Shown: positions 1,616 through 10,828 of the stretch, one piece after another
Layout of the letters: every line of letters begins with the position of its first letter
How positions within the stretch are numbered: the stretch's first letter is position 1
Source: Candidatus Saccharibacteria bacterium CG2_30_41_52
GTDB taxonomy: Bacteria > Patescibacteriota > Saccharimonadia > Saccharimonadales > Saccharimonadaceae
NCBI GenBank assembly: GCA_001873625.1
Contig: MNZN01000001.1
Coordinates: 124,001-188,000, forward strand
Reading direction: 5' to 3'
Length of the DNA: 64,000 bases
Notes under the pieces: model-generated
Seen by the model: only the letters and a program-made list of their open reading frames with translations
Told to the model about the DNA's origin: nothing
Database searches by the model: none
Translations under genes and position numbers: made by a program

Positions 1616-1690
1616 AGGGGTATAGTACAACGGTTAGTATATGGGTTTCCAAAACCTAGGATCATGGTTCGATTCCGTGTACCCCTGCCA
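1616..1690 (+). tRNA. tRNA-Trp (anticodon CCA)
   Basis: The acceptor strands AGGGGTA (1616-1622) and TACCCCT (1680-1686) pair perfectly, followed by discriminator G and an encoded CCA end. The anticodon arm TGGGT/ACCTA encloses TTCCAAA, giving anticodon CCA (Trp, UGG only). The T-arm loop TTCGATT is canonical. The G discriminator is the usual identity element of bacterial tRNA-Trp. The 3' half is the apparent integration target of the neighbouring recombinase, whose coding end runs antisense through it. Confidence 0.93.
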
Positions 1691-3274
1691 AATAGGACAA
1701 AGAAGGGAAATTTGATAGTTTTCCACATTATGACCTCTGTAAATGAGGTCTTTTTTGTTGGTTCGGTTAAACATATTTTCCTCCATTAATTTTTGCTTAC
1801 TTTCTTCGACTTTTTTAGCTATCATATCAACAAATTTGGTATATTTAACAGATAAGGAATTGTCTTTTAATGTGACCGATTCAAGCAGTTCGGTTAAAAT
1901 CACACGTTTTGCATCATTGGCTAGATTTTCGTTTAAATACTCGTCTTTAGCCTGCTGGGTAAGTCTGACTAAATTAACGGTCTGCTTATGTTGTTCTAGG
2001 CTAGTTGATTCAGCAACTAGCAGCTCATCGTTTAATGATTCAATTTGCTTTAGAATATCAGTGTGTTTGGCTTCATAGCGTTCGCGGGTTATTTCACCGG
2101 CCAACTTATCGTCATAAAGCATCTCATCCATCTTCTTGAATCGTTCAATACGGGTTATAAGTGATTGCCTGTAGTCTTCAATGCGCTCAGTGTTTTGCTC
2201 AAAATCGGTATCAAGACATTTTATCAGCCAATCAATTATCGCTTGTGATGGACTAATAAGTTTGTCCAGTTTATCGACAAGTATTTGTTGAGCTGCATCT
2301 TCGCGAAGGTATTTATTATGTTTACAAGTCACTAAATCACGTTGGCAAGCACCATAGTAATGGCCTTTTTGTTTTTCCCAGGTTATGACTTTGCCACAAT
2401 AGCCACATTTCAATACGCCTTTTAGGGTTAAGTCGTGGTGGCGCTTTTTGGTTAATCTTTTGTTTCTCATTTTTGATCGAACTGCTTTAAATAACTGCTT
2501 TGTTATAAGTGGCTCGTGCGATCCGATGTAAGTTTCGCCATTGAAATTGATGATGCCAATATAGTAAGAATTATTTAATAGTTTGTGGGTCGAGCTTCTT
2601 GTTAACGAATGATTATTATAAGTAATCACACCAACCTGCTTTAAAAATGCCCAAACAGATTCAACAGTTTCTCCCGGCTTCAAGTACAGCTCAAACGCAC
2701 TTTTGACCAGTGGTGCGATTTTAGGATTAGGGACGTGTATTCGTTTTCCATTTTGAATGGCGGTCATATATCCGATAGGTGGTCGAGAAGGCATCCATCC
2801 TTGGGCGAGTTTTTCGGCCCAGCCCTTCATGGCTTCTTCGCGCAAGTTGTCGGTATATTTCTTAGCTACGGCTAAATGAATATTCCACATAAACTTAACG
2901 TCGGACTTAGCTTCTTTGTGTAGTTTTAAGTTTTCTTTGACAGCGTGTAGCATCCGATCTTTATCTTCTTGCAGCCAATCATCAATCGCAACTGCGTCGC
3001 GTAAGTTTCTAGTAAGACGGTCAGTTTTCTCAACGGCAAGATTATAAATCTTGTTCTCGTTAAGATAATTGAGCAGCTCGCTAAATATTTTGCGACTTTG
3101 TTGCTTAGAGGCTGTTTCAGCAATCTTATACACCTTAACGACCAATAAGCCGTTTGCTAGGCAATAATTCTGCAGCAGCTTGAGCTGAGAGTCCAAGGAA
3201 TAACCTTCATCTTCCTGCGACTTTGATGACACGCGTGCTAGAATCACGGTTGAACTAATAGCCTTATTCTGCAT
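1634..3274 (-). CDS. Large serine recombinase (site-specific integrase)
   Basis: 546 residues. An N-terminal resolvase domain carries ARVSSKSQ (nucleophilic serine about residue 16). A central Recombinase domain and a zinc ribbon (CGYCGK, then two further Cys about residues 300-330) follow, then a long coiled-coil region and a basic tail. This is the standard architecture of large serine integrases, which recombine short att sites through a 5'-phosphoserine intermediate. I chose the ATG at 3274 because AGGAAG precedes it; a longer frame starts at 3289. The last about 18 codons are antisense to tRNA-Trp (WQGYTESNHDPRFWKP), so the stop comes from target DNA. It is probably the integrase of the island to its right. 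Confidence 0.9.
   Translation of the reverse strand: MQNKAISSTVILARVSSKSQEDEGYSLDSQLKLLQNYCLANGLLVVKVYKIAETASKQQSRKIFSELLNYLNENKIYNLAVEKTDRLTRNLRDAVAIDDWLQEDKDRMLHAVKENLKLHKEAKSDVKFMWNIHLAVAKKYTDNLREEAMKGWAEKLAQGWMPSRPPIGYMTAIQNGKRIHVPNPKIAPLVKSAFELYLKPGETVESVWAFLKQVGVITYNNHSLTRSSTHKLLNNSYYIGIINFNGETYIGSHEPLITKQLFKAVRSKMRNKRLTKKRHHDLTLKGVLKCGYCGKVITWEKQKGHYYGACQRDLVTCKHNKYLREDAAQQILVDKLDKLISPSQAIIDWLIKCLDTDFEQNTERIEDYRQSLITRIERFKKMDEMLYDDKLAGEITRERYEAKHTDILKQIESLNDELLVAESTSLEQHKQTVNLVRLTQQAKDEYLNENLANDAKRVILTELLESVTLKDNSLSVKYTKFVDMIAKKVEESKQKLMEENMFNRTNKKDLIYRGHNVENYQISLLCPIWQGYTESNHDPRFWKPIY
1676..1701 (+). repeat. tRNA 3'-end direct repeat, candidate attL core
   Basis: Two overlapping segments recur elsewhere. 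Positions 1676-1689 recur exactly at 49742-49755 (14/14). Positions 1684-1701 recur with one mismatch at 44637-44654 (17/18), and its first part recurs at 48246-48254. Such repeats of a tRNA 3' end next to a recombinase gene are the classic signature of att sites. Which copy is the true right end is not settled. Confidence 0.55.
1732..1756 (+). terminator. Terminator downstream of tRNA-Trp, inside the recombinase frame
   Basis: GACCTC (1732-1737) and GAGGTC (1745-1750) form a 6-bp stem with a 7-nt loop, followed by six T on the plus strand. It would end the tRNA transcript. It lies antisense within the 3' coding part of the recombinase. Confidence 0.7.
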
Positions 3275-3482
3275 TGCGCTTCCTATCAATCGTTATCGTC
3301 CTGCCATTGGCAAGGGTCTCAATAATTGTTATCAAACTGCGACCTATTTTCTCGGCCTCATCATGACTAATCTTCTTTTTATTCTGTTCTTCAAGTATAG
3401 TCCGAAGCTCATTAATAGCCGCTTCATCCACCTTGAATGATTTGGAAATAATCTTGATTATGTTATGGAATGTTTCGTTCAT
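3264..3482 (-). CDS. Small hypothetical protein upstream of recombinase
   Basis: 72 residues, mostly helical and charged, with no recognised domain. The start has a strong Shine-Dalgarno sequence (CGGAGGG) about 7 nt upstream. Its end overlaps the recombinase start by 11 nt, so the two are translationally coupled. It could be a recombination directionality or regulatory factor, but that rests only on position. Confidence 0.6.
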   Translation of the reverse strand: MNETFHNIIKIISKSFKVDEAAINELRTILEEQNKKKISHDEAEKIGRSLITIIETLANGRTITIDRKRNAE

Positions 3483-3502
3483 AAATACCCTCCGGATAAA
3501 CG

Positions 3503-3527
3503 AAAAGACGCCTTGGTAGGTCGTCTT
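3503..3527 (-). terminator. Hairpin after the RHH gene
   Basis: On the minus strand AAGACG...CGTCTT with inner CCT/AGG pairs and one bulged base is followed by TT. It lies between the ribbon-helix-helix stop and the next minus-strand gene, so it may attenuate read-through towards the recombinase. Confidence 0.45.
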
Positions 3528-3553
3528 ACAATTCAGCTAAATAGGAGTTTATT

Positions 3554-3751
3554 TTACCAAGGCCTGCCAGGCTTTGGTCGTTCTTTTAATTCGTTTTCAA
3601 CTAATCTTTTTAATTCTTTGTCGCCTGTATTAGCAAGTAGCTTTAATACTAACTCACTGAGTGTATCACCGTGAGTCTTTGCGACTTTCTTGGCTCGTTC
3701 TCGGACGGCCTCAGTCACTCTTATCTGCATACTGACGATCTTTCTGGACAT
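3554..3751 (-). CDS. Ribbon-helix-helix DNA-binding protein
   Basis: 65 residues. A beta strand (IVSMQIRVT) is followed by two helices ending TLSELVLKLL, the Arc/MetJ/CopG ribbon-helix-helix pattern. Such proteins are antitoxins, plasmid copy-number or relaxosome accessory factors, or repressors of mobile-element genes. No toxin-like partner is adjacent; the next minus-strand genes are the recombinase pair, so autoregulation or control of excision is plausible but inferred. Confidence 0.65.
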   Translation of the reverse strand: MSRKIVSMQIRVTEAVRERAKKVAKTHGDTLSELVLKLLANTGDKELKRLVENELKERPKPGRPW

Positions 3752-3784
3752 CAGTCCTATTTTACAATAAAACTTGTTACGGTG

Positions 3785-3937
3785 CTAATTTCCGCATATT
3801 TCACACGGTACTTCGTGATTAATGACTGCACGCAGTTCATCATCCGACGTTTCGTCGATAGTATCCTGAAGTTCGTAGTATTGGCATTCGCAGACTTCAT
3901 CTATCGCTTCAGCTTCCAGTGTTTCTCTGTCTGTCAT
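3785..3937 (-). CDS. 50-residue acidic protein with CxC and CxxC motifs
   Basis: The frame runs from an ATG at 3937 preceded by GGAGGG at optimal spacing to TAG at 3785. The protein is strongly acidic and has CEC near residue 17 and CEIC at the C-terminus, four cysteines that could bind one zinc. It stands alone about 30 nt upstream of the RHH gene on the same strand. No family is recognised. Confidence 0.55.
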   Translation of the reverse strand: MTDRETLEAEAIDEVCECQYYELQDTIDETSDDELRAVINHEVPCEICGN

Positions 3938-4139
3938 ATACCCTCCATTGTACCTATAGTAGCCGAATTGTTAACGTTCAACCTCTATATAAATAGTAAT
4001 ACTAATTAAAATAAAAAGCAATACTATTTATGTATAAAATATGCATTTTGCAAACTGCATAAATACGTCAATACTAACAGATAGAAGCTTGCTATTTTAC
4101 TCTCTCTCTTTTATATATAATATATAGGAGAATAGAGAA

Positions 4140-4922
4140 GTGGTCGTAAACGATAAAAGATATAACAAACTAAATGCCAAGCAACTACATATTTTAACTC
4201 TTATTTACAAATTCAGATTTATTAGCATACCATTACTAACTGAGTACCAAAACCTAAAGTCCCAAACTACATTACTTAGAAACCTAAAAATACTAGAAGA
4301 ACAAGGATACATTGGTCGTCGATTTGATTTAACTTTCAAGATTGATCGTAAACCTGCGTATTATTACTTAGCTGCAAAGGGCATAGCTGTTCTTAAAGAT
4401 GACCCGCGTTTTGATACAGGCGTACTCCATTCCTATTACAAGAACAAAAATGTAAGTGAATCATTCATGCAACATTCAATTGATGTATTAGCCGTATTCA
4501 ATTCTATTAAAAAGACACTCCCGGATAGTTTTGACATATTTTCCAAGTCTGAACTTGCAACATTTGACGATTTTCCCGAAAACAAACCAGACCTATTTCT
4601 TAGAGGTAAAAACGAATATTTCATCACGCTTGCGCATGATGTCCAACCGTTTATCATTAGAAAACGGTTGGCTGAATATATAGCTCATAGCGAAGAAGAT
4701 GGCTGGGGCAGTGGAGTATACCCAACCATACTATTCGTATTTGCAGATAGTTCTAGCGAAACACGCTTCCTGGGATACGCCAAAAGCGCCCTAGAGAGTG
4801 CTGGCATTGATAGTGATGAATTACACATTGGAGCAACAACGCTACGAGCGTTGACTAAAAAACCCTATACTGATTCAGTTTGGACATTTAGCGATGATGC
4901 GAATCCTAAATCACTTGATTGA
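4140..4922 (+). CDS. Replication-relaxation family protein (winged-helix N-terminus)
   Basis: 260 residues from a GTG with AGGAG about 11 nt upstream. The first about 90 residues form a winged helix (LNAKQLHILTLIYKFRFI, then LLRNLKILEEQGYIGRR), as in the replication-relaxation family common on patescibacterial and Gram-positive mobile elements. The C-terminal half has alternating strands and helices without an HUH or other nicking motif that I can see. It probably acts in element replication, mobilisation or its control. It converges with the HNH gene. Confidence 0.6.
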   Translation: MVVNDKRYNKLNAKQLHILTLIYKFRFISIPLLTEYQNLKSQTTLLRNLKILEEQGYIGRRFDLTFKIDRKPAYYYLAAKGIAVLKDDPRFDTGVLHSYYKNKNVSESFMQHSIDVLAVFNSIKKTLPDSFDIFSKSELATFDDFPENKPDLFLRGKNEYFITLAHDVQPFIIRKRLAEYIAHSEEDGWGSGVYPTILFVFADSSSETRFLGYAKSALESAGIDSDELHIGATTLRALTKKPYTDSVWTFSDDANPKSLD

Positions 4923-4941
4923 GCATTTTTACGTCATGCTC
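4921..4941 (-). ncRNA. 3'-end RNA hairpin, divergent copy E of the recurrent motif
   Basis: On the minus strand GAGCAT and ATGCTC enclose the loop GACGTAAAA, a 6-bp stem, shortly after the stop of the HNH gene. It shares the GACGTAAAA segment and position with the four better copies at 5896, 6135, 6680 and 7665 but lacks their first helix. Confidence 0.4.
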
Positions 4942-4963
4942 GGTGTATACAAGAGTAATAATC

Positions 4964-5854
4964 TTACTCCCTAGATGCAAACGAAAACTTCAAAGTCTCT
5001 GGGTTGTATATTATCTCGGTCGAAGCACCGTCGACACTCAAGTCTGGTGCAAAGATAGCGCCCAATACTGCAATTGCCGGAACTCGTCTCTTTTTCTCCG
5101 TATTGGACTCATTCATGTAAACGACATGATCAGCTAATTGCTCGGGCATACCATCGGTGAAAATTATCCACCTGTCTGGTGCTGTATTGTCATTCAGGAA
5201 ATGTTGCAAGAAAGGGTAGTACTCTTTACGATTTAATTTTGAATATTTATCACCTTCAAATTCGCTATTTATTAAGAGGTATGTGTCGTCGTCGTGTATA
5301 TGCCTACTAAGAGGACTTTGCTTATTGACAATATCTTTTATCTTAGTACTAACACTAGTGTTGGGATCGGCTTTTTCTTCAAGAATTTTTGCGTGTTTTG
5401 TACTTTTGAGCTTAAGTGATTTCCATGCATCTACTTGCTTTGAATTCTTTGCTAGTTTATCTACAACGTACATTAGATAGTTTTCTGCTGGAACATAGAT
5501 ATCAATTGACGATACGAAAGTATCCTCTATTAGTGAGCGTAAACTATACCAAACTGGTTTTTCTATCTCTCCAGAAAGGGTTATGCCATCATGCCCTGAG
5601 GTTGTTTTATGTACATATCCCACACCATAACTATCTTCTCTGGTTTTTAATAAGTGGCACTGCTTACAAAGAACTTGCCAGTTGTTGGTGTCCTTATGTG
5701 ATCCAGTAAATCGCCACATCGGTATTATGTGATCAATAGTCATCTCGCTGGGTTTATATTTACCACACATAGCACATACCTTACCGCGCCTAAAAGACGT
5801 CTTTAGATGACGATAACTTGGATCTGTGTTGGCGAAATCAGAATATGAACTCAT
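4964..5854 (-). CDS. HNH endonuclease domain protein
   Basis: 296 residues. The N-terminal 75 residues hold a zinc-bound HNH site: CAMC, then TIDHIIPMWR (DH of the motif), then N..VLCKQCHLLKT. HNH nucleases cut DNA and serve as restriction enzymes, homing endonucleases or phage/plasmid nucleases. The remaining about 220 residues are not recognised. A TATAAT lies 9 nt before the ATG with TTGGAT 17 nt further upstream, implying an almost leaderless mRNA. No methylase partner is adjacent. Confidence 0.75.
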   Translation of the reverse strand: MSSYSDFANTDPSYRHLKTSFRRGKVCAMCGKYKPSEMTIDHIIPMWRFTGSHKDTNNWQVLCKQCHLLKTREDSYGVGYVHKTTSGHDGITLSGEIEKPVWYSLRSLIEDTFVSSIDIYVPAENYLMYVVDKLAKNSKQVDAWKSLKLKSTKHAKILEEKADPNTSVSTKIKDIVNKQSPLSRHIHDDDTYLLINSEFEGDKYSKLNRKEYYPFLQHFLNDNTAPDRWIIFTDGMPEQLADHVVYMNESNTEKKRRVPAIAVLGAIFAPDLSVDGASTEIIYNPETLKFSFASRE

Positions 5855-5863
5855 TTGACTAAA

Positions 5864-5892
5864 ATTATACGATGTTACGCGATATTATCCAA
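5864..5892 (-). promoter_or_regulatory. Promoter of HNH gene (near-leaderless)
   Basis: On the minus strand TTGGAT (5892-5887) and TATAAT (5869-5864) are 17 nt apart. The expected start point falls 2-3 nt before the ATG at 5854. Confidence 0.55.
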
Positions 5893-5895
5893 GGA

Positions 5896-5924
5896 AAGCC
5901 TTTTTACGTCTTGCTCAGGACGTA
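5896..5924 (-). ncRNA. Recurrent 3'-UTR pseudoknot motif, copy A
   Basis: Read on the minus strand, helix 1 is TACGTC/GACGTA and helix 2 is GAGC/GCTT with a terminal G-U pair. Helix 2's first strand lies in the loop of helix 1, so together they form an H-type pseudoknot with an A-rich third loop. It begins 6 nt after the stop of the 58-residue gene. Confidence 0.5.
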
Positions 5925-5930
5925 TCGAAA

Positions 5931-6107
5931 TCACTCCTCGACAACAATGTCTTTGGTTAAGTTAATGTGTGACACGCTATCAGTCACATTACCAGTTTTA
6001 TCAATCCAAACCTGTATATGAAACGGCTCAGTATACCAACCGTTGGCTTTGGCTATCTTAGCCCAAAACGCTCGGTGCTTTTCAATCTCTGTTTGCGATA
6101 CTTTCAT
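5931..6107 (-). CDS. 58-residue hypothetical protein
   Basis: ATG at 6107 with GAGGAG 7 nt upstream, TGA at 5931. The sequence begins MKVSQTEIEKHRAFWAKIAK and is otherwise mixed alpha/beta with no recognised domain. It lies in a run of small minus-strand genes, each followed by the same RNA motif, and is probably plasmid or phage cargo. It is too short for ordinary length cut-offs, but ribosome-binding site, position and composition support it. Confidence 0.6.
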   Translation of the reverse strand: MKVSQTEIEKHRAFWAKIAKANGWYTEPFHIQVWIDKTGNVTDSVSHINLTKDIVVEE

Positions 6108-6134
6108 AACTTACTCCTCTACATTAAATTTTGA

Positions 6135-6162
6135 CAAGCCTTTTAACGTCTTGCTTAGGACG
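6135..6162 (-). ncRNA. Recurrent 3'-UTR pseudoknot motif, copy B
   Basis: On the minus strand helix 1 is CGTC/GACG and helix 2 is TAAGC/GCTTG. Compared with copy A the helix 2 pair A-U replaces G-U, which keeps pairing. It begins 7 nt after the stop of the 159-residue gene and lies upstream of the 58-residue gene. Confidence 0.5.
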
Positions 6163-6171
6163 ATTAACTAA

Positions 6172-6651
6172 CTAGTTATGGCAGTCAACTTGGACTACCC
6201 ATAAACCTTCAGACTCTTTAAGTAGTAAGTCGAGTTCACGCTGATTCGTAATAGCGCTGCCGTTAGTATCGAAAAGCTGACAAGCATTGGCATGGTAGCC
6301 ACTTGCTCGGCTAAACTGGTATCTCGATAGATAGTGCCCAGCGATATCTTGCTTAAAATCTTCGTTGAAGATTTGCTCATCGCTATACTGCTCTAGCATG
6401 AAGCGTATAGTTGCAAGCGCCTGTTTAAACTCTGCTAATTGCCCTTGCATAGCATCTATCGCCATAGATTGCGCTTTCTTTGCGCTCAGGCGAACCGGTT
6501 TCCAGCAATCAGGCCAACGACTATCATCTGTTTCACTATAATAACAGTCGAACTCATTCCATTCGACAAGGTCTGACATTACGTTATCTGCCTTGCTATT
6601 CGCCTCAGTGGCGTTGTCTGCTTCAACGATTAATCGTACTAAATAATGCAT
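6172..6651 (-). CDS. 159-residue hypothetical accessory protein
   Basis: A clean frame with AAGGAG 7 nt before the ATG. The N-terminus (MHYLVRLIVEADNATEA) is a beta strand followed by a helix, with a Trp/Cys-rich middle (SRWPDCWKP). I recognise no named domain; the composition resembles small plasmid or phage proteins. It is flanked on both sides by copies of the pseudoknot motif and runs in one direction with DUF3768 and the 58-residue gene, suggesting one operon of accessory genes. Confidence 0.65.
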   Translation of the reverse strand: MHYLVRLIVEADNATEANSKADNVMSDLVEWNEFDCYYSETDDSRWPDCWKPVRLSAKKAQSMAIDAMQGQLAEFKQALATIRFMLEQYSDEQIFNEDFKQDIAGHYLSRYQFSRASGYHANACQLFDTNGSAITNQRELDLLLKESEGLWVVQVDCHN

Positions 6652-6679
6652 AACTTTCTCCTTTAAAATTAAACTTTGT

Positions 6680-6707
6680 CGGGTAGTTTAGCGTCTTACC
6701 CAGGACA
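6680..6707 (-). ncRNA. Recurrent 3'-UTR pseudoknot motif, copy C
   Basis: On the minus strand helix 1 is TGTC/GACG (U-G closing pair) and helix 2 is TGGGTA/TACCCG. Helix 2 differs at almost every base from copies A, B and D but stays paired, the strongest covariation in the set. It begins 7 nt after the DUF3768 stop. Confidence 0.5.
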
Positions 6708-6714
6708 AAGTGAA

Positions 6715-7023
6715 CTAATATTCCTCGGCCAGCATGACCGTCAGAACTCGTTCACATTCCGGATGCAGTGGGTCACACCACATCTCGAAAGACGGATCGT
6801 AGTAATCTATCTTCCAGAAAACCGTCTGGTTTTCCCAAGTTAGCTTTCCAAAGTCATGCTCACCGTGAGGATCGTTGTCCTCGTTAAACCTGTTATAACT
6901 ACGAATAGCTCTAATCAAGCCCAGGGTATCTCTAAACTCGAATATACCTCGAGTCAGACTCATGGTCTCGACTTTGCGAAACTCATCGTTACGCTTTGCT
7001 ACCTTTTCTGCGACTTCGTTCAT
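6715..7023 (-). CDS. DUF3768 family protein
   Basis: 102 residues. The family hallmarks are present: MSLTRGI, NEDNDPHGEHDFG, VFWKIDYYD and a C-terminal RVLTVMLAEEY. DUF3768 proteins occur mostly on plasmids and integrative elements and have no established biochemical role. AAGGAG precedes the ATG at 7023. The upstream region shares an about 78-bp module with that of the gene starting at 7971, which suggests co-regulation. Confidence 0.8.
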   Translation of the reverse strand: MNEVAEKVAKRNDEFRKVETMSLTRGIFEFRDTLGLIRAIRSYNRFNEDNDPHGEHDFGKLTWENQTVFWKIDYYDPSFEMWCDPLHPECERVLTVMLAEEY

Positions 7024-7096
7024 AAAGAACTCCTTTCGATTCGAGTGGTGCTAATACCGACCACTTCATGGGAAGAACGCAAAGCAATATAGGTTC

Positions 7097-7175
7097 GTCA
7101 AGGTGGAGCGCCCTTGACGTTTACCAAAGGACGAACGACCTTGATGGTTCTAGATTGCTTTGTATAATGAGAAGA
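7097..7175 (+). repeat. Duplicated intergenic regulatory module, copy 1
   Basis: About 78 bp that recur at 8033-8110 with roughly 75-80 percent identity. GTCAAGG (7097-7103) pairs perfectly with CCTTGAC (7112-7118) and could instead pair with CCTTGAT (7139-7145), so two exclusive hairpins are possible. A plus-strand TTGATG/TATAAT pair (7141, 7163; 16-nt spacer) ends the module. Each copy lies in the divergent gap between a small minus-strand gene and a plus-strand gene. Confidence 0.6.
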
Positions 7176-7322
7176 CAGTGGGAGGGAAGAAAAATAATAA
7201 TAATCAACTATTTTTACGGGAATTGTTTTTAATCTACCTATCTCAAAATTGCTAGAATGATATTATATATAGACAGCGTAGCTATTAAAACAATATGTAG
7301 TTAATAAATAAGGAGCGTAGTC

Positions 7323-7610
7323 ATGGTTAAGCAAAAGGTAGTTATTTGGACTCCAGAACATCGTAGAGAAGTTATTCAATTTTTAAAATTATATACAGAC
7401 CAGCTTGAAAAACAGATTAACAACAAAGACGAAGGTTATGGCTTGCCACAAATACAATCAGGGGTTTTACATATTGTAGATATGACATTGCCACCTAAAA
7501 TAGAATACGTTGTTAATAGTGGTCCAAGCCAGCAATTATTGGAAGGAACTAAGGTAATATTGACCAGCAAGGAGTATCAAGAATATGAGGACATACTTAG
7601 CAAAGAATAA
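7323..7610 (+). CDS. 95-residue hypothetical protein
   Basis: ATG at 7323 with AGGAG upstream. The protein is soluble, with helix-rich N-terminal 40 residues (TPEHRREVIQFLKLYTDQLEK) and a mixed C-terminal half. No family is recognised. It is transcribed away from DUF3768 and may use the promoter in the duplicated module about 150 nt upstream. It converges with the gene at 7699-7971. Confidence 0.55.
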   Translation: MVKQKVVIWTPEHRREVIQFLKLYTDQLEKQINNKDEGYGLPQIQSGVLHIVDMTLPPKIEYVVNSGPSQQLLEGTKVILTSKEYQEYEDILSKE

Positions 7611-7664
7611 ATCTACCTAGTTGTTCGCATTTAATAATTTCATGAAGTCGTGTAGCATATGTTT

Positions 7665-7693
7665 CAAGCCTTTTTTAGTCTTGCTCAGGACTA
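7665..7693 (-). ncRNA. Recurrent 3'-UTR pseudoknot motif, copy D
   Basis: On the minus strand helix 1 is TAGTC/GACTA (compare TACGTC/GACGTA in copy A, a compensated change) and helix 2 is TGAGC/GCTTG. It begins 5 nt after the stop of the gene at 7699-7971. No minus-strand gene follows nearby, so the motif belongs to the 3' end of the upstream gene and not to the leader of a downstream one. Confidence 0.5.
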
Positions 7694-7698
7694 CCGGA

Positions 7699-7971
7699 CT
7701 AAGCCTGGTTATTTTCTACAATCTCAAGCCAATCTACTCGGCCTAGTGTATGAGCTACAATATCGCTCCATAGATTAGTTATTTCTAACTCACTATGTTC
7801 AAGCTGCATCCATTCATCAAGAGCTTCAGCTTGATCTCGCATGTCGCCGTACAATGAGATGATATACATAAGTTGCCCATAGTAGCCCTCATCGTTTGTG
7901 AGCCACAAGTTAACTAGCCACGTTTCGTAATTAGTCCACCCGTTGTAAGTTTGCTGTTCTGCACTGCACAT
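7699..7971 (-). CDS. Small plasmid/phage-type protein with NGWTNYETW motif
   Basis: 90 residues. The N-terminal NGWTNYETWLVNLWLTND is a signature seen in short proteins of plasmids, phages and integrative elements whose function is unknown. The rest is helical and acidic. AAAGGAG precedes the start. Its upstream region carries copy 2 of the duplicated module and its 3' end carries pseudoknot copy D, so it shares both flanking elements with the DUF3768 gene. Confidence 0.65.
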   Translation of the reverse strand: MCSAEQQTYNGWTNYETWLVNLWLTNDEGYYGQLMYIISLYGDMRDQAEALDEWMQLEHSELEITNLWSDIVAHTLGRVDWLEIVENNQA

Positions 7972-8032
7972 ATTCTTTTTTCTCCTTTACTTTACGTAAC
8001 GGAGTCAAAATACGGTGCCGCATGGCAAAGCT

Positions 8033-8110
8033 GTCAAGATGGAGCGCTCCTGACGTTTACCAGAGAACGAACGACCTTGACGGTTTTGCTCGGTACGTAT
8101 AATGAGGAGA
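8033..8110 (+). repeat. Duplicated intergenic regulatory module, copy 2
   Basis: Counterpart of 7097-7175. GTCAAG (8033-8038) can pair with CTTGAC (8076-8081) or, less well, with the central segment ending TGAC at 8054. The plus-strand TTGACG/TATAAT pair (8077, 8098) has a short 15-nt spacer. It lies between the gene at 7971 and the CBASS-like operon. Confidence 0.6.
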
Positions 8111-8178
8111 TATGTAAAGTGAAAGATATTTTATAATTTTGACAAATAATTACAAAAATGTAGTTATTACAATTATCG

Positions 8179-8208
8179 TTGACATACGCAACATATAGCG
8201 TCTATACT
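8179..8208 (+). promoter_or_regulatory. Promoter of the CBASS-like operon
   Basis: TTGACA (8179-8184) and TATACT (8203-8208) with an 18-nt spacer. The predicted start about 8215 leaves a leader of about 35 nt before the small ORF at 8250. Confidence 0.65.
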
Positions 8209-8249
8209 ATAAAGCACACACAACATATGGGGATAAGAGAGGTTAAAAT

Positions 8250-8372
8250 ATGTTAGAAATAAAAATAACATACACAATAAATACCAATGATAATCAGCAT
8301 AGTATCATCTGGTTATGTCATTTCGCGAAACAACCAAACACCAGAACCGATGCTAGATTGGCGTTTCTATAA
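8250..8372 (+). CDS. Possible 40-codon leader ORF ahead of the CD-NTase gene
   Basis: ATG with GAGAGG 8 nt upstream, the only good ribosome-binding site before the CD-NTase. The frame ends TAA at 8370-8372, one base before the ATG at 8374 that best matches the CD-NTase N-terminus. The peptide is not recognised. The arrangement suggests termination-reinitiation coupling; the alternative is that the CD-NTase simply starts at 8287 or 8350 in its own frame. Confidence 0.4.
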   Translation: MLEIKITYTINTNDNQHSIIWLCHFAKQPNTRTDARLAFL

Positions 8373-8373
8373 T

Positions 8374-9636
8374 ATGGATGCATATTTTGTAGAAATGCTA
8401 AATCGTCTCAAACTAACTGTTAAGCAAAAAGAGGACGCCGTAACCAAATATACTAACGTTTCGAAATTATTACATAACGAGTTTTATGAAACTGATTATA
8501 ACGGTTCTACGAAATTATTAATTGGTTCATACGGTAAACATACCAACATTCGCCCGCCCGAAGATGTTGATTTACTATTTAAAATTCCTGAATCTATATA
8601 TGTTCAGTATGAAGACTCACCAGGTGCTCTTTTGCAAAGAATTCGTAATGTCCTTAATAAGACTTACACAACAACAGAAGAAATACATGCTTGGGGTAAG
8701 GTTGTTTTGATCCAATTTTCGGATGGGACCCATAATGTTGAGTTGTTGCCAGGTTTTGAGATTGATGGGGTATTTATGATTCCGAATACAGAAGACGGTG
8801 GCGCTTGGGAATCATTCGACGTTCGAACAGAGATGCAGACAATCCAAGATTCTAACACTTTAACAAACGGTGTCACGCGCAAATTGATACGTATTATTAA
8901 ACGTTGGAGTAAATACACTAAAACCGTCACAATAAAGTCATATAGAATTGAAGAGCTATGTGTGTTGTTCTTGTCTGAATATAATTTGAATGATATTTTA
9001 TGGTCAGTTTTAGTAAAAGACTTTTTTGGATGGCTTAGTGGCGTCGATAACGAAGATGTGACCGATAATTCAACTCAAATAAATACTGCAATTACTCGCT
9101 CTATTAAGGCGGTCGAGTTTGAGACCGATGGCAACACGGATGAAGCATGTAAGGAATGGCAAAAGATTTTCGGAAAACGCACATTTCCGGCTACAAGTGC
9201 AAGCCTCGTTAAAGCGTTTGTATTGAACTCTCAGCAGCCAACTGACAAAGAAATGTTTATTGAAGATATTGTACCTGTACGGATAAATCCATTGGTTAAT
9301 ATTGATATATCGGCACAATTTGTGGGCCCAAAAATACCAGTACACCCATTTGCGACATTTATCCGTGGCCGCAGCCCAGTACCAAAGCGTCAGTCCATAC
9401 GATTTAACGCTCAAATAACTGGTGTTGATGGGTATGATTTGAAATGGAAGGTTCGTAACTTTGGTGATGAAGCCGCCATTGCAAAGGGTCTACGCGGAGA
9501 GATAAAAAACGGCACTGGTCTAGTTCTCGAAGAGAACACGCTATACGAGGGTACCCATTACGTCGAGTGTTATGTTATTAGTAGTGATGTATGTGTAGCA
9601 AGAATGATACATTGGGTTCCGATTGGGAGGGAATAG
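8374..9636 (+). CDS. CD-NTase (CBASS cyclic oligonucleotide synthase) with C-terminal sensor domain
   Basis: 420 residues from the ATG at 8374; the frame is open back to 8287. The N-terminal half is a DNA-polymerase-beta-like nucleotidyltransferase with IGSYGKHT (G51-S52), D64-V-D66 and E123, the Mg-binding triad. Family members make cyclic di- or trinucleotides on phage infection. The last about 120 residues resemble the sensor domain seen at the C-terminus of many CBASS nucleotidyltransferases. It is followed after 2 nt by a SLATT membrane protein, the likely effector. No E1/E2 ubiquitin-like or HORMA/TRIP13 genes are present, so this would be a minimal type I system. The start is uncertain because no ribosome-binding site precedes any in-frame ATG. 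Confidence 0.85.
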   Translation: MDAYFVEMLNRLKLTVKQKEDAVTKYTNVSKLLHNEFYETDYNGSTKLLIGSYGKHTNIRPPEDVDLLFKIPESIYVQYEDSPGALLQRIRNVLNKTYTTTEEIHAWGKVVLIQFSDGTHNVELLPGFEIDGVFMIPNTEDGGAWESFDVRTEMQTIQDSNTLTNGVTRKLIRIIKRWSKYTKTVTIKSYRIEELCVLFLSEYNLNDILWSVLVKDFFGWLSGVDNEDVTDNSTQINTAITRSIKAVEFETDGNTDEACKEWQKIFGKRTFPATSASLVKAFVLNSQQPTDKEMFIEDIVPVRINPLVNIDISAQFVGPKIPVHPFATFIRGRSPVPKRQSIRFNAQITGVDGYDLKWKVRNFGDEAAIAKGLRGEIKNGTGLVLEENTLYEGTHYVECYVISSDVCVARMIHWVPIGRE

Positions 9637-9638
9637 TT

Positions 9639-10193
9639 ATGGACAAAGAAAATTTATCAGTCGTAAGGCAAAGTCTTGCTAATGCCTCGTTTAGCCACAA
9701 GGTTCATGAGGTTGCAAGTGATCGAAAGACTGAAGCGTCTGTTCGATTTAAATATATCGATATTTGCATTATTAGTCTTATATTTATTTTATTAGTTTTG
9801 CAGACACAAATGTCGAGTAATTTTATATTTAGTTTTATAGGTGCTGGCCTAACCGCCGCTGAGATAGTGGTTTTAATAGTTAAGTTGTTCTTTCATTTTG
9901 ACGAGGACTCAGTTGCACACAAAAACACTGCTTTGAAATATATGGCCCTCAGAGATCGATATAAAAATTTAATAGCTGATATTATCAAACAAACAATTAA
10001 CCAAAGCGAAATAGTAAATCGTCGGGATCAGTTGCTCCATGAATATCAAATGATATCAGACCTAGCACCCCAAACTAGTAAAGATGATTATTGCGAAGCC
10101 ATGAAACGCCTCAAGATAAAAGAAGATAATCAAAATATCTGGTCTGATACACAAGTAGATCACTTCTTACCCAAAGAGTTACGAAAAAAATAG
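9639..10193 (+). CDS. SLATT-domain membrane protein (putative CBASS effector)
   Basis: 184 residues from the ATG at 9639, preceded by GGGAGG that lies in the end of the CD-NTase gene. Two transmembrane helices (IDICIISLIFILLVLQ and the following FSFIGAGLTAAEIVVLIVK) are followed by a cytosolic helical part containing YMALRDRYKNLIADI, the SLATT pattern. SLATT proteins are predicted pore-forming effectors triggered by nucleotide second messengers and cause cell death or dormancy. The tight coupling to the CD-NTase supports that role here. Confidence 0.75.
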   Translation: MDKENLSVVRQSLANASFSHKVHEVASDRKTEASVRFKYIDICIISLIFILLVLQTQMSSNFIFSFIGAGLTAAEIVVLIVKLFFHFDEDSVAHKNTALKYMALRDRYKNLIADIIKQTINQSEIVNRRDQLLHEYQMISDLAPQTSKDDYCEAMKRLKIKEDNQNIWSDTQVDHFLPKELRKK

Positions 10194-10219
10194 CAACAAA
10201 TTTTACTTATTGATTCTGA

Positions 10220-10828
10220 TTATCTTTCAATCACTAAAAACTCGTAATTAGATAGTGATGGTTGTGATTCTTTAGATATGCCGAAGTATTCATATAGCCA
10301 GCTATCATATGAAAAACTTCCTATCAGAACTAACTCGAAACTTTCGAGTAGTTTACCCGATACAGTATCTAGTCTTGGGCTAGAAGTTGAATATACCAAT
10401 TTCATGTTAGCTTTTTGGGCATTTTGATTAATTGTAATTAATGCAGCGTCAAATCTACCTTGGTCTTTACAGGCCATATCGCATTCTTCAATATAGATAA
10501 ATATGAACGGTTTTTTGATGTTATTTTTTGCACGATTCTTCGAAAGAGCCGCCAGCTCCTCTAATTTATTGAAACTATAGTCGGGAGCATTACCGTGCTC
10601 CACGTCAAATAACAAATATTCCTGCTTGGCCCCATCATCATTACCCACGCTGAATTCACATTGTTTGAGGTCGAATATCGCATACTTCATATCGTTAGGC
10701 TTAAAAGCCGATTCATATCTTTTCACTAGACTATGGACGAGTCGGCTTTTACCAGATCCGGATTGTCCAATTAATAACATCGAGTTGTGTACATTGAATG
10801 TAAAATAATCAGCATTCGTTATATTCAT
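10220..10828 (-). CDS. FtsK/HerA-like P-loop ATPase, short form
   Basis: 202 residues. Walker A is GQSGSGKSRL near residue 20 and Walker B is FIFIYIEECD near residue 112. The order of strands and the region FDLKQ resemble FtsK/TraD-type translocase motors, but the protein is only a motor core with no membrane or DNA-binding domain. A TACAAT lies 7 nt before the ATG, giving a leaderless mRNA. It converges with the SLATT gene; a link to the CBASS-like pair or to the T4SS is not demonstrable. Confidence 0.6.
   Translation of the reverse strand: MNITNADYFTFNVHNSMLLIGQSGSGKSRLVHSLVKRYESAFKPNDMKYAIFDLKQCEFSVGNDDGAKQEYLLFDVEHGNAPDYSFNKLEELAALSKNRAKNNIKKPFIFIYIEECDMACKDQGRFDAALITINQNAQKANMKLVYSTSSPRLDTVSGKLLESFELVLIGSFSYDSWLYEYFGISKESQPSLSNYEFLVIER

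Follow-up and report, generated by a model that had tools for sequence, protein, structure and literature searches.

A minimal H-type RNA pseudoknot behind stop codons in phages, mobile elements and bacterial chromosomes, most likely forming the 3′ end of the preceding coding unit

A 64,000-nucleotide stretch of the genome of Candidatus Saccharibacteria bacterium CG2_30_41_52 (contig MNZN01000001.1, positions 124,001 to 188,000; hereafter the window) carries a short RNA motif, which recurs a few nucleotides (nt) behind the stop codons of minus-strand genes. We conclude that the motif most likely represents a distinct cis-acting RNA family, namely a minimal H-type pseudoknot (hereafter the knot) forming the 3′ end of the preceding coding unit.

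Both helices of the knot are proven by covariation. The clean test was a pattern search in which the loop letters and one helix were fixed and the other helix was left free. When helix 1 was set to GAC/GTC, 68 of the 82 distinct copies had helix 2 complete in its four inner pairs, at a chance expectation for full pairing of about 2%, and helix 2 was represented by 15 sequence types; with helix 2 fixed as GGTC/GACC, helix 1 was formed in 64/64 copies of 14 sequence types. Covariation was also seen against shuffles and slid partners, while the helix tables and the alignment A5, whose rows were chosen by pairing, are illustrative. A descriptor of the whole pseudoknot matched 482 copies in the fetched DNA (not a density, as many of them were brought in by pattern searches) and none in twice as much shuffled DNA. 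Two interleaved covarying helices define the H-type class, and the original prediction, made from the window alone, of such a fold with compensated changes in both helices is thus upheld.

The consensus reads 5′ N-N-x-x-C / C / U-RRGC-A / W / G-x-x-N / N-N-AAAC / U-GCYY-N and spans about 29 nt. The geometry deduced from these letters would comprise a helix 1 of 3–5 pairs, a loop 1 of a single C, a helix 2 of 4–6 pairs, one W bridging the helices and an A-rich loop 3 of six nt, which ends in AAAC and crosses helix 1; the motif would therewith have nearly the minimal size possible for an H-type pseudoknot. Positions C6, C7, A13, G15 and A21–A23 are demanded by the descriptor (344 distinct copies), and they proved nearly invariant as well in alignment A4, which was based on the model and imposed no such requirement. 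Two knots directly adjoin each other at a 27-nt pitch in the loci L459, L495 and L511.

The copies in the window and the open reading frames (ORFs) in front of them are as follows.

5895–5924, minus strand: pseudoknot copy A; helix 1 TACGTC (5919–5924) paired with GACGTA (5905–5910), helix 2 GAGC (5913–5916) paired with GCTT (5896–5899); 40.2 bits with covariance model R1 and a descriptor match
6135–6164, minus strand: pseudoknot copy B; helix 1 CGTC/GACG, helix 2 TAAGC/GCTTG; 41.4 bits
6680–6709, minus strand: pseudoknot copy C; helix 1 TGTC/GACG, helix 2 TGGGTA/TACCCG; 43.6 bits
7665–7694, minus strand: pseudoknot copy D; helix 1 TAGTC/GACTA, helix 2 TGAGC/GCTTG; 38.4 bits
4921–4941, minus strand: fifth site; helix 2 GAGCAT/ATGCTC and the conserved loop GACGTAAAA; 21.8 bits (weak)
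5931–6107, minus strand: 58-aa ORF upstream of copy A
6172–6651, minus strand: 159-aa ORF of unknown function upstream of copy B
6715–7023, minus strand: DUF3768 ORF (PF12599) upstream of copy C
7699–7971, minus strand: DUF7249-like ORF (PF23907) upstream of copy D
4964–5854, minus strand: HNH endonuclease ORF (PF01844) upstream of the 4921–4941 site

Copies A–D lie within 1–2 nt of where they had been predicted, on the minus strand and with the paired helices as expected, and each begins approximately 5–8 nt behind the stop codon of its minus-strand ORF. Helix 1 is 4 bp long in copies B and C (in copy C, three Watson-Crick pairs and one U-G), and helix 2 comprises 4–6 bp in copies A–D. All four were matched by the descriptor, which found nothing in about 6.5 Mb of shuffled sequence. 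An alternative fold of copy C, a nested 7-bp hairpin (CTTTGTC/GACAAAG) using its 3′ flank, was rejected as a general structure, because this flank is common to homologous loci whose upstream half differs. The hairpin proposed at 4921–4941 stood in part: its helix 2 and loop are present, and no helix-1 partner was found at the site. At its 3′ end the site runs into the stop codon of a convergent plus-strand ORF (4140–4922), and it is a decayed or variant copy. All five matches in the host genome fall within one element.

The distribution of the knot extends far beyond the small mobile-element genes of Patescibacteria to which it had initially been ascribed, a restriction that turned out too narrow, as diverse phages and the chromosomes of numerous phyla also carry the knot. 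In two other genomes of the host's order (G162 and G074), the motif likewise stands behind the stop codons of relatives of the 159-aa gene, its helices having other sequences, and both genomes hold a second copy after the gene in front, which is DUF3768 in one of them and another gene in the other. The first covariance model, built from eight copies, showed the expected covariation and matched at E ≤ 0.05 in 83 of the 395 genomes of the order, the weakest matches being possibly due to chance; a covariance-model search of patescibacterial genomes was a check that the original prediction had proposed. The plasmid search proposed together with it gave no match in PLSDB. A single sequence version of the motif, used to scan viral contigs, matched at least 120 of them, and pattern scans overall revealed hundreds of copies among viral contigs and bacteria of numerous phyla. 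BLAST searches with the consensus matched phages of Moorella, Nostoc, Synechococcus, Mycobacterium, Microbacterium, Arthrobacter and Lactobacillus, crAss-like phages and a 6-kb microvirus. A second model confirmed copies in Labelle (1), MTATph1 (1), S-EIVl (7) and the single-stranded DNA (ssDNA) microvirus OM869566 (1), and marginal BLAST matches in staphylococcal and Vibrio phages were not confirmed. Carriers that can be cultured include Arthrobacter phage Molivia, Lactobacillus phage KC5a and Synechococcus phage S-EIVl. No copies were found in T4, T7, lambda, SPO1, phiKZ, syn9, P-SSM2, S-PM2 and HTVC010P. Among bacterial species genomes, at least 117 stretches carry the motif, including those of Omnitrophota, Deltaproteobacteria, Clostridia, Anaerolineae, Saccharibacteria and others.

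In the large majority of copies the upstream gene lies on the strand of the motif. Phage spacing was measured to motif position 2 from the end of the nearest upstream stop codon that closes an open frame of 30 or more codons; it is exactly 4 nt in 97 of 370 phage copies and rarely less; when each related upstream gene was counted once, 47 of 199 had a spacing of 4 nt, 27 of 5 nt and 12 of less than 4 nt. In phages, the distance from the motif to the next ATG is most often near 20 nt, with a second rise at 26–29 nt. The next gene is encoded by the same strand for 154/169 knots as compared to 1613/2139 other gene ends in the same contigs, a comparison weakened by control ORFs that came from a mechanical caller and include spurious ones. 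TAA is favoured as the stop codon upstream of knots (112/171 versus 1085/2198, P = 2e-4) and the stop context is strong (TAA, U at +4). Such a lean towards TAA is typical of well-expressed genes, and the idea of stop-codon read-through was rejected, since TAA is favoured. The upstream ORFs of phage knots did not differ in length from the controls, and the association with small genes, as well as the role of a small-gene marker, had to be abandoned. Phage genes in front of the knot include those for the major head protein, thymidylate synthase, Hsp20 and HNH proteins, those behind it SSB, polynucleotide kinase and PhoH, and a Pfam/PHROG-type survey found genes of many kinds around the knot with no common pathway.

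What follows the knot is varied as well. A tRNA gene of the same strand starts 3–14 nt behind it in 20 of 530 copies, and an antisense one in none, at an expectation from tRNA density of about 0.2 copies; in the Arthrobacter phage Molivia, for instance, the order is SSB stop codon, knot, tRNA-Gly. In three Firmicutes loci the Rfam DUF2800 RNA begins directly behind the knot (L448, 2824–2981; L488, 1691–1849; L470, 1–56), so that the published DUF2800 boundary adjoins the knot and does not overlap it. A run of five T (T5) occurs within the first 12 nt behind the knot in 8–12% of copies versus 1–3% further on, and the remaining followers include a convergent gene or a start codon about 20 nt on. 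Considering this variety, the knot is to be assigned to the gene in front, as part of its 3′ end, and not to the next gene. The constant relation to a downstream gene that marks a riboswitch of the 5′ untranslated region (UTR) is lacking, and copy D has no minus-strand gene downstream at all, the convergent plus-strand ORF there ending at 7610; the view of a 3′-end element rather than a next-gene riboswitch, already taken in the original prediction, is borne out.

A possible type III hammerhead was noticed directly behind a knot in a Butyrivibrio contig (L440, 2285–2336; 30.2 bits, below the gathering score). Hammerheads as a regular follower were rejected, this being the one possible case, and the CTGANGA motif was otherwise not enriched behind the knot.

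A separate class is formed by 75 chromosomal loci (among L411–L526), in which a tiny ORF led by a Shine-Dalgarno sequence ends before or within the knot. The peptides of these ORFs resemble MKRFMIPRVAHCSEGC and share a conserved Cys/His pattern, M-RF-IPRVAHCxxGC, of which no description was found in the literature. Near these micro-ORFs lie, among others, genes for Rrf2 regulators, ArsP, heavy-metal ATPases, hemerythrin, rubrerythrin and ferredoxins. Many of the loci have their stop codon within the knot, and therefore the phage spacing rule fails there.

Among the functions initially guessed at, protection of mRNA ends appears to fit the sequence data best. We favour, tentatively and as a reading that falls a little short of probable, that the knot is a compact barrier protecting mRNA 3′ ends made by processing or termination. 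It would stay closed between a ribosome terminating upstream and a ribosome initiating downstream, and it would block 3′-to-5′ decay where 3′ ends arise directly behind it. Such ends could result from RNase P processing of a following tRNA, from a ribozyme or from termination at a T-run, or alternatively from endonuclease cleavage in a G-poor stretch after the knot; the tRNA, DUF2800 RNA, hammerhead and T-run sites would presumably be the places where they arise. The polycistronic mRNAs of phages and mobile elements might thereby be punctuated into separately stable messages. In the window's host, a PNPase-like protein carries two RNase PH domains and no RNB (RNase II/R) domain was detected; PNPase would be the 3′-to-5′ exonuclease to be blocked there.

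Several facts weigh against mRNA-end protection. Knots are commoner inside same-strand gene runs than at operon ends, and intrinsic terminators show no enrichment downstream of phage knots (6/171 versus 66/2198), so that a separate terminator behind the knot was rejected as a rule. In the micro-ORF loci the knot comes behind the tiny ORF or reaches into its end, and translating ribosomes would therefore melt helix 1 in many of them. Many well-studied phages do without the knot, which thus is not needed in general. Finally, the very sharp stop spacing could mean direct ribosome coupling instead of protection.

Such coupling is unlikely, yet it is the main alternative. The knot would abut the mRNA entry of a ribosome that has reached the stop codon and would influence termination, recycling or re-initiation; it might, for instance, prevent read-through or keep ribosomes from scanning on to the next gene after termination. 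The best argument for this is the sharp optimum of 4 nt with almost nothing closer, which would put stem 1 near the entry of the mRNA channel, and the strong stop context, the enrichment between same-strand genes and the frequent ATG some 20 nt behind the knot point in the same direction; moreover, the one-nt C loop and A-rich loop 3 resemble those of mechanically stable frameshift pseudoknots. However, behind many copies there is no gene at all, or else a tRNA or structured RNA, the stop codon is often inside the knot in the chromosomal class, and compact phage genomes could produce tight spacing without any function.

We regard as doubtful that the knot is a binding site for a host protein or a small molecule of nearly all bacteria, i.e., a 3′-UTR operator or riboswitch-like aptamer. 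This would agree with the invariance across phyla of the loop letters C7, A13, G15, AAA 21–23 and, mostly, C24, and with the size of the motif, which is close to that of preQ1-I aptamers; the same conserved letters are, however, expected from triplex packing in a minimal pseudoknot, and neither a common pathway of the surrounding genes nor a fixed downstream expression platform was seen. A broader conjecture, to which we give as little credence, is that the knot docks on the terminating ribosome and defines the mRNA 3′ end as a near-universal punctuation of phages and mobile elements, which chromosomal micro-ORFs would have adopted for a translation-dependent response to redox state or metals.

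Transcription termination, by a pseudoknotted terminator or a pause signal requiring another factor, is improbable. The T5 enrichment directly behind the knot is in its favour, copies with such a run tending to have longer gaps to the next gene, as is the position of the other gene's stop codon at the far end of the knot in convergent pairs. Nevertheless, a T-run is missing from about 90% of copies, some knots precede a separate terminator or have the next gene 20 nt away, and phage copies are depleted at convergent ends. The absence of a T-run after copies A–D had already led to the claim that the motif is not an ordinary terminator, with which our data agree. A gene-cassette boundary mark or a recombination site acting as folded single-stranded DNA is very improbable: knots do follow genes in differing orders in the Saccharibacteria element family, but the strict orientation with the upstream gene, the tight link to stop codons and the single copies after core phage genes and chromosomal micro-ORFs argue against it, the helices are of variable letters and so provide no long identical core for recombination, and the marking of cassettes suggested originally is unsupported, with neighbour genes of all kinds.

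Several further features of the window were recorded. A 53-nt direct repeat (7097–7149 and 8033–8085, 89% identical) lies with each of its copies approximately 60–75 nt upstream of a knot-ended minus-strand gene (DUF3768 and DUF7249) and is probably a shared leader or promoter; by eye, a similar stretch precedes DUF3768 in another locus (L004, about 2440–2530). The region 1616–10828 contains a serine recombinase beside a tRNA, a Replic_Relax-like protein and a HerA/FtsK-like ATPase, which suggests an integrative element. Its plus strand carries at 8287–10193 a CBASS-like pair consisting of an oligonucleotide cyclase (SMODS/AGS_C) and a two-transmembrane (2TM) effector, and the HNH protein (4964–5854, minus strand) has weak similarity to the Septu nuclease PtuB.

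It is rare for structured RNAs of strong covariation to be shared by tailed phages, an ssDNA microvirus, mobile elements and the chromosomes of many phyla, and elements linked to the 3′ ends of genes are rarer. The absence of the motif from Rfam 15 and from T4, T7 and lambda may explain why it was missed. The knot offers a test of how phages keep and partition their polycistronic messages, and a natural pseudoknot of such a small size is useful for structural and RNA-engineering work.

As to known systems, no family could be named originally, and Rfam 15 (including preQ1, STAXI, SAM-II and DUF2800), searched at gathering and permissive thresholds with the window and related loci, gave no match over the motif. 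The motif was not found described in the literature on phage pseudoknots, candidate structured RNAs and intercistronic stabilisers, a search that was not exhaustive, so that an earlier description may exist. An intrinsic terminator consists of a stem and a subsequent U-run, whereas a T5 run follows only the minority of knots given above. Type III toxin-antitoxin RNAs (ToxI-like) are tandem repeats before a ToxN-type endoribonuclease gene, while knots are single, their neighbours are diverse and no ToxN-type gene is among the neighbour families listed in the Pfam/PHROG/PADLOC scans. Integron attC sites (bulged hairpins with AAC/GTT core boxes and an integrase) are argued against by the interleaved helices and the gene diversity, no dedicated scan having been made. 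The L17 downstream element is a structured RNA of a bacterial 3′ UTR tied to one ribosomal protein gene (PMC2864571); the knot shares the 3′-UTR place with it and differs in fold and in the lack of a single-gene link. STAXI is a pseudoknot RNA of unknown function near DNA-handling genes, with two or three tandem units and frequent UUCG tetraloops (PMC2864571). A pseudoknot and a few tandem copies are features of our motif too, yet knots are nearly always single, their alignment contains no tetraloop and Rfam STAXI does not match them. The preQ1-I riboswitch is likewise a single H-type pseudoknot of about 30–34 nt with an A-rich loop, but it is a 5′-UTR aptamer whose conserved letters differ. 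Luteovirus-type frameshift pseudoknots, such as that of beet western yellows virus, are minimal H-type structures with a C in loop 1 and an A-rich loop 3. The knot shares this geometry and differs by its place behind a stop codon; no slippery site common to the copies was seen, and a frameshift product is lacking. The REP/BIME, puf and malEF intercistronic hairpins are located just after stop codons inside operons and, where this is known, stabilise the upstream message against 3′ exonucleases. The knot has the same location; these elements are, however, plain hairpins of some bacteria, while the knot is a conserved pseudoknot with fixed loop letters across phages and phyla. By this analogy, the knot would function most like the intercistronic stabilising structures, standing outside the known hairpin families.

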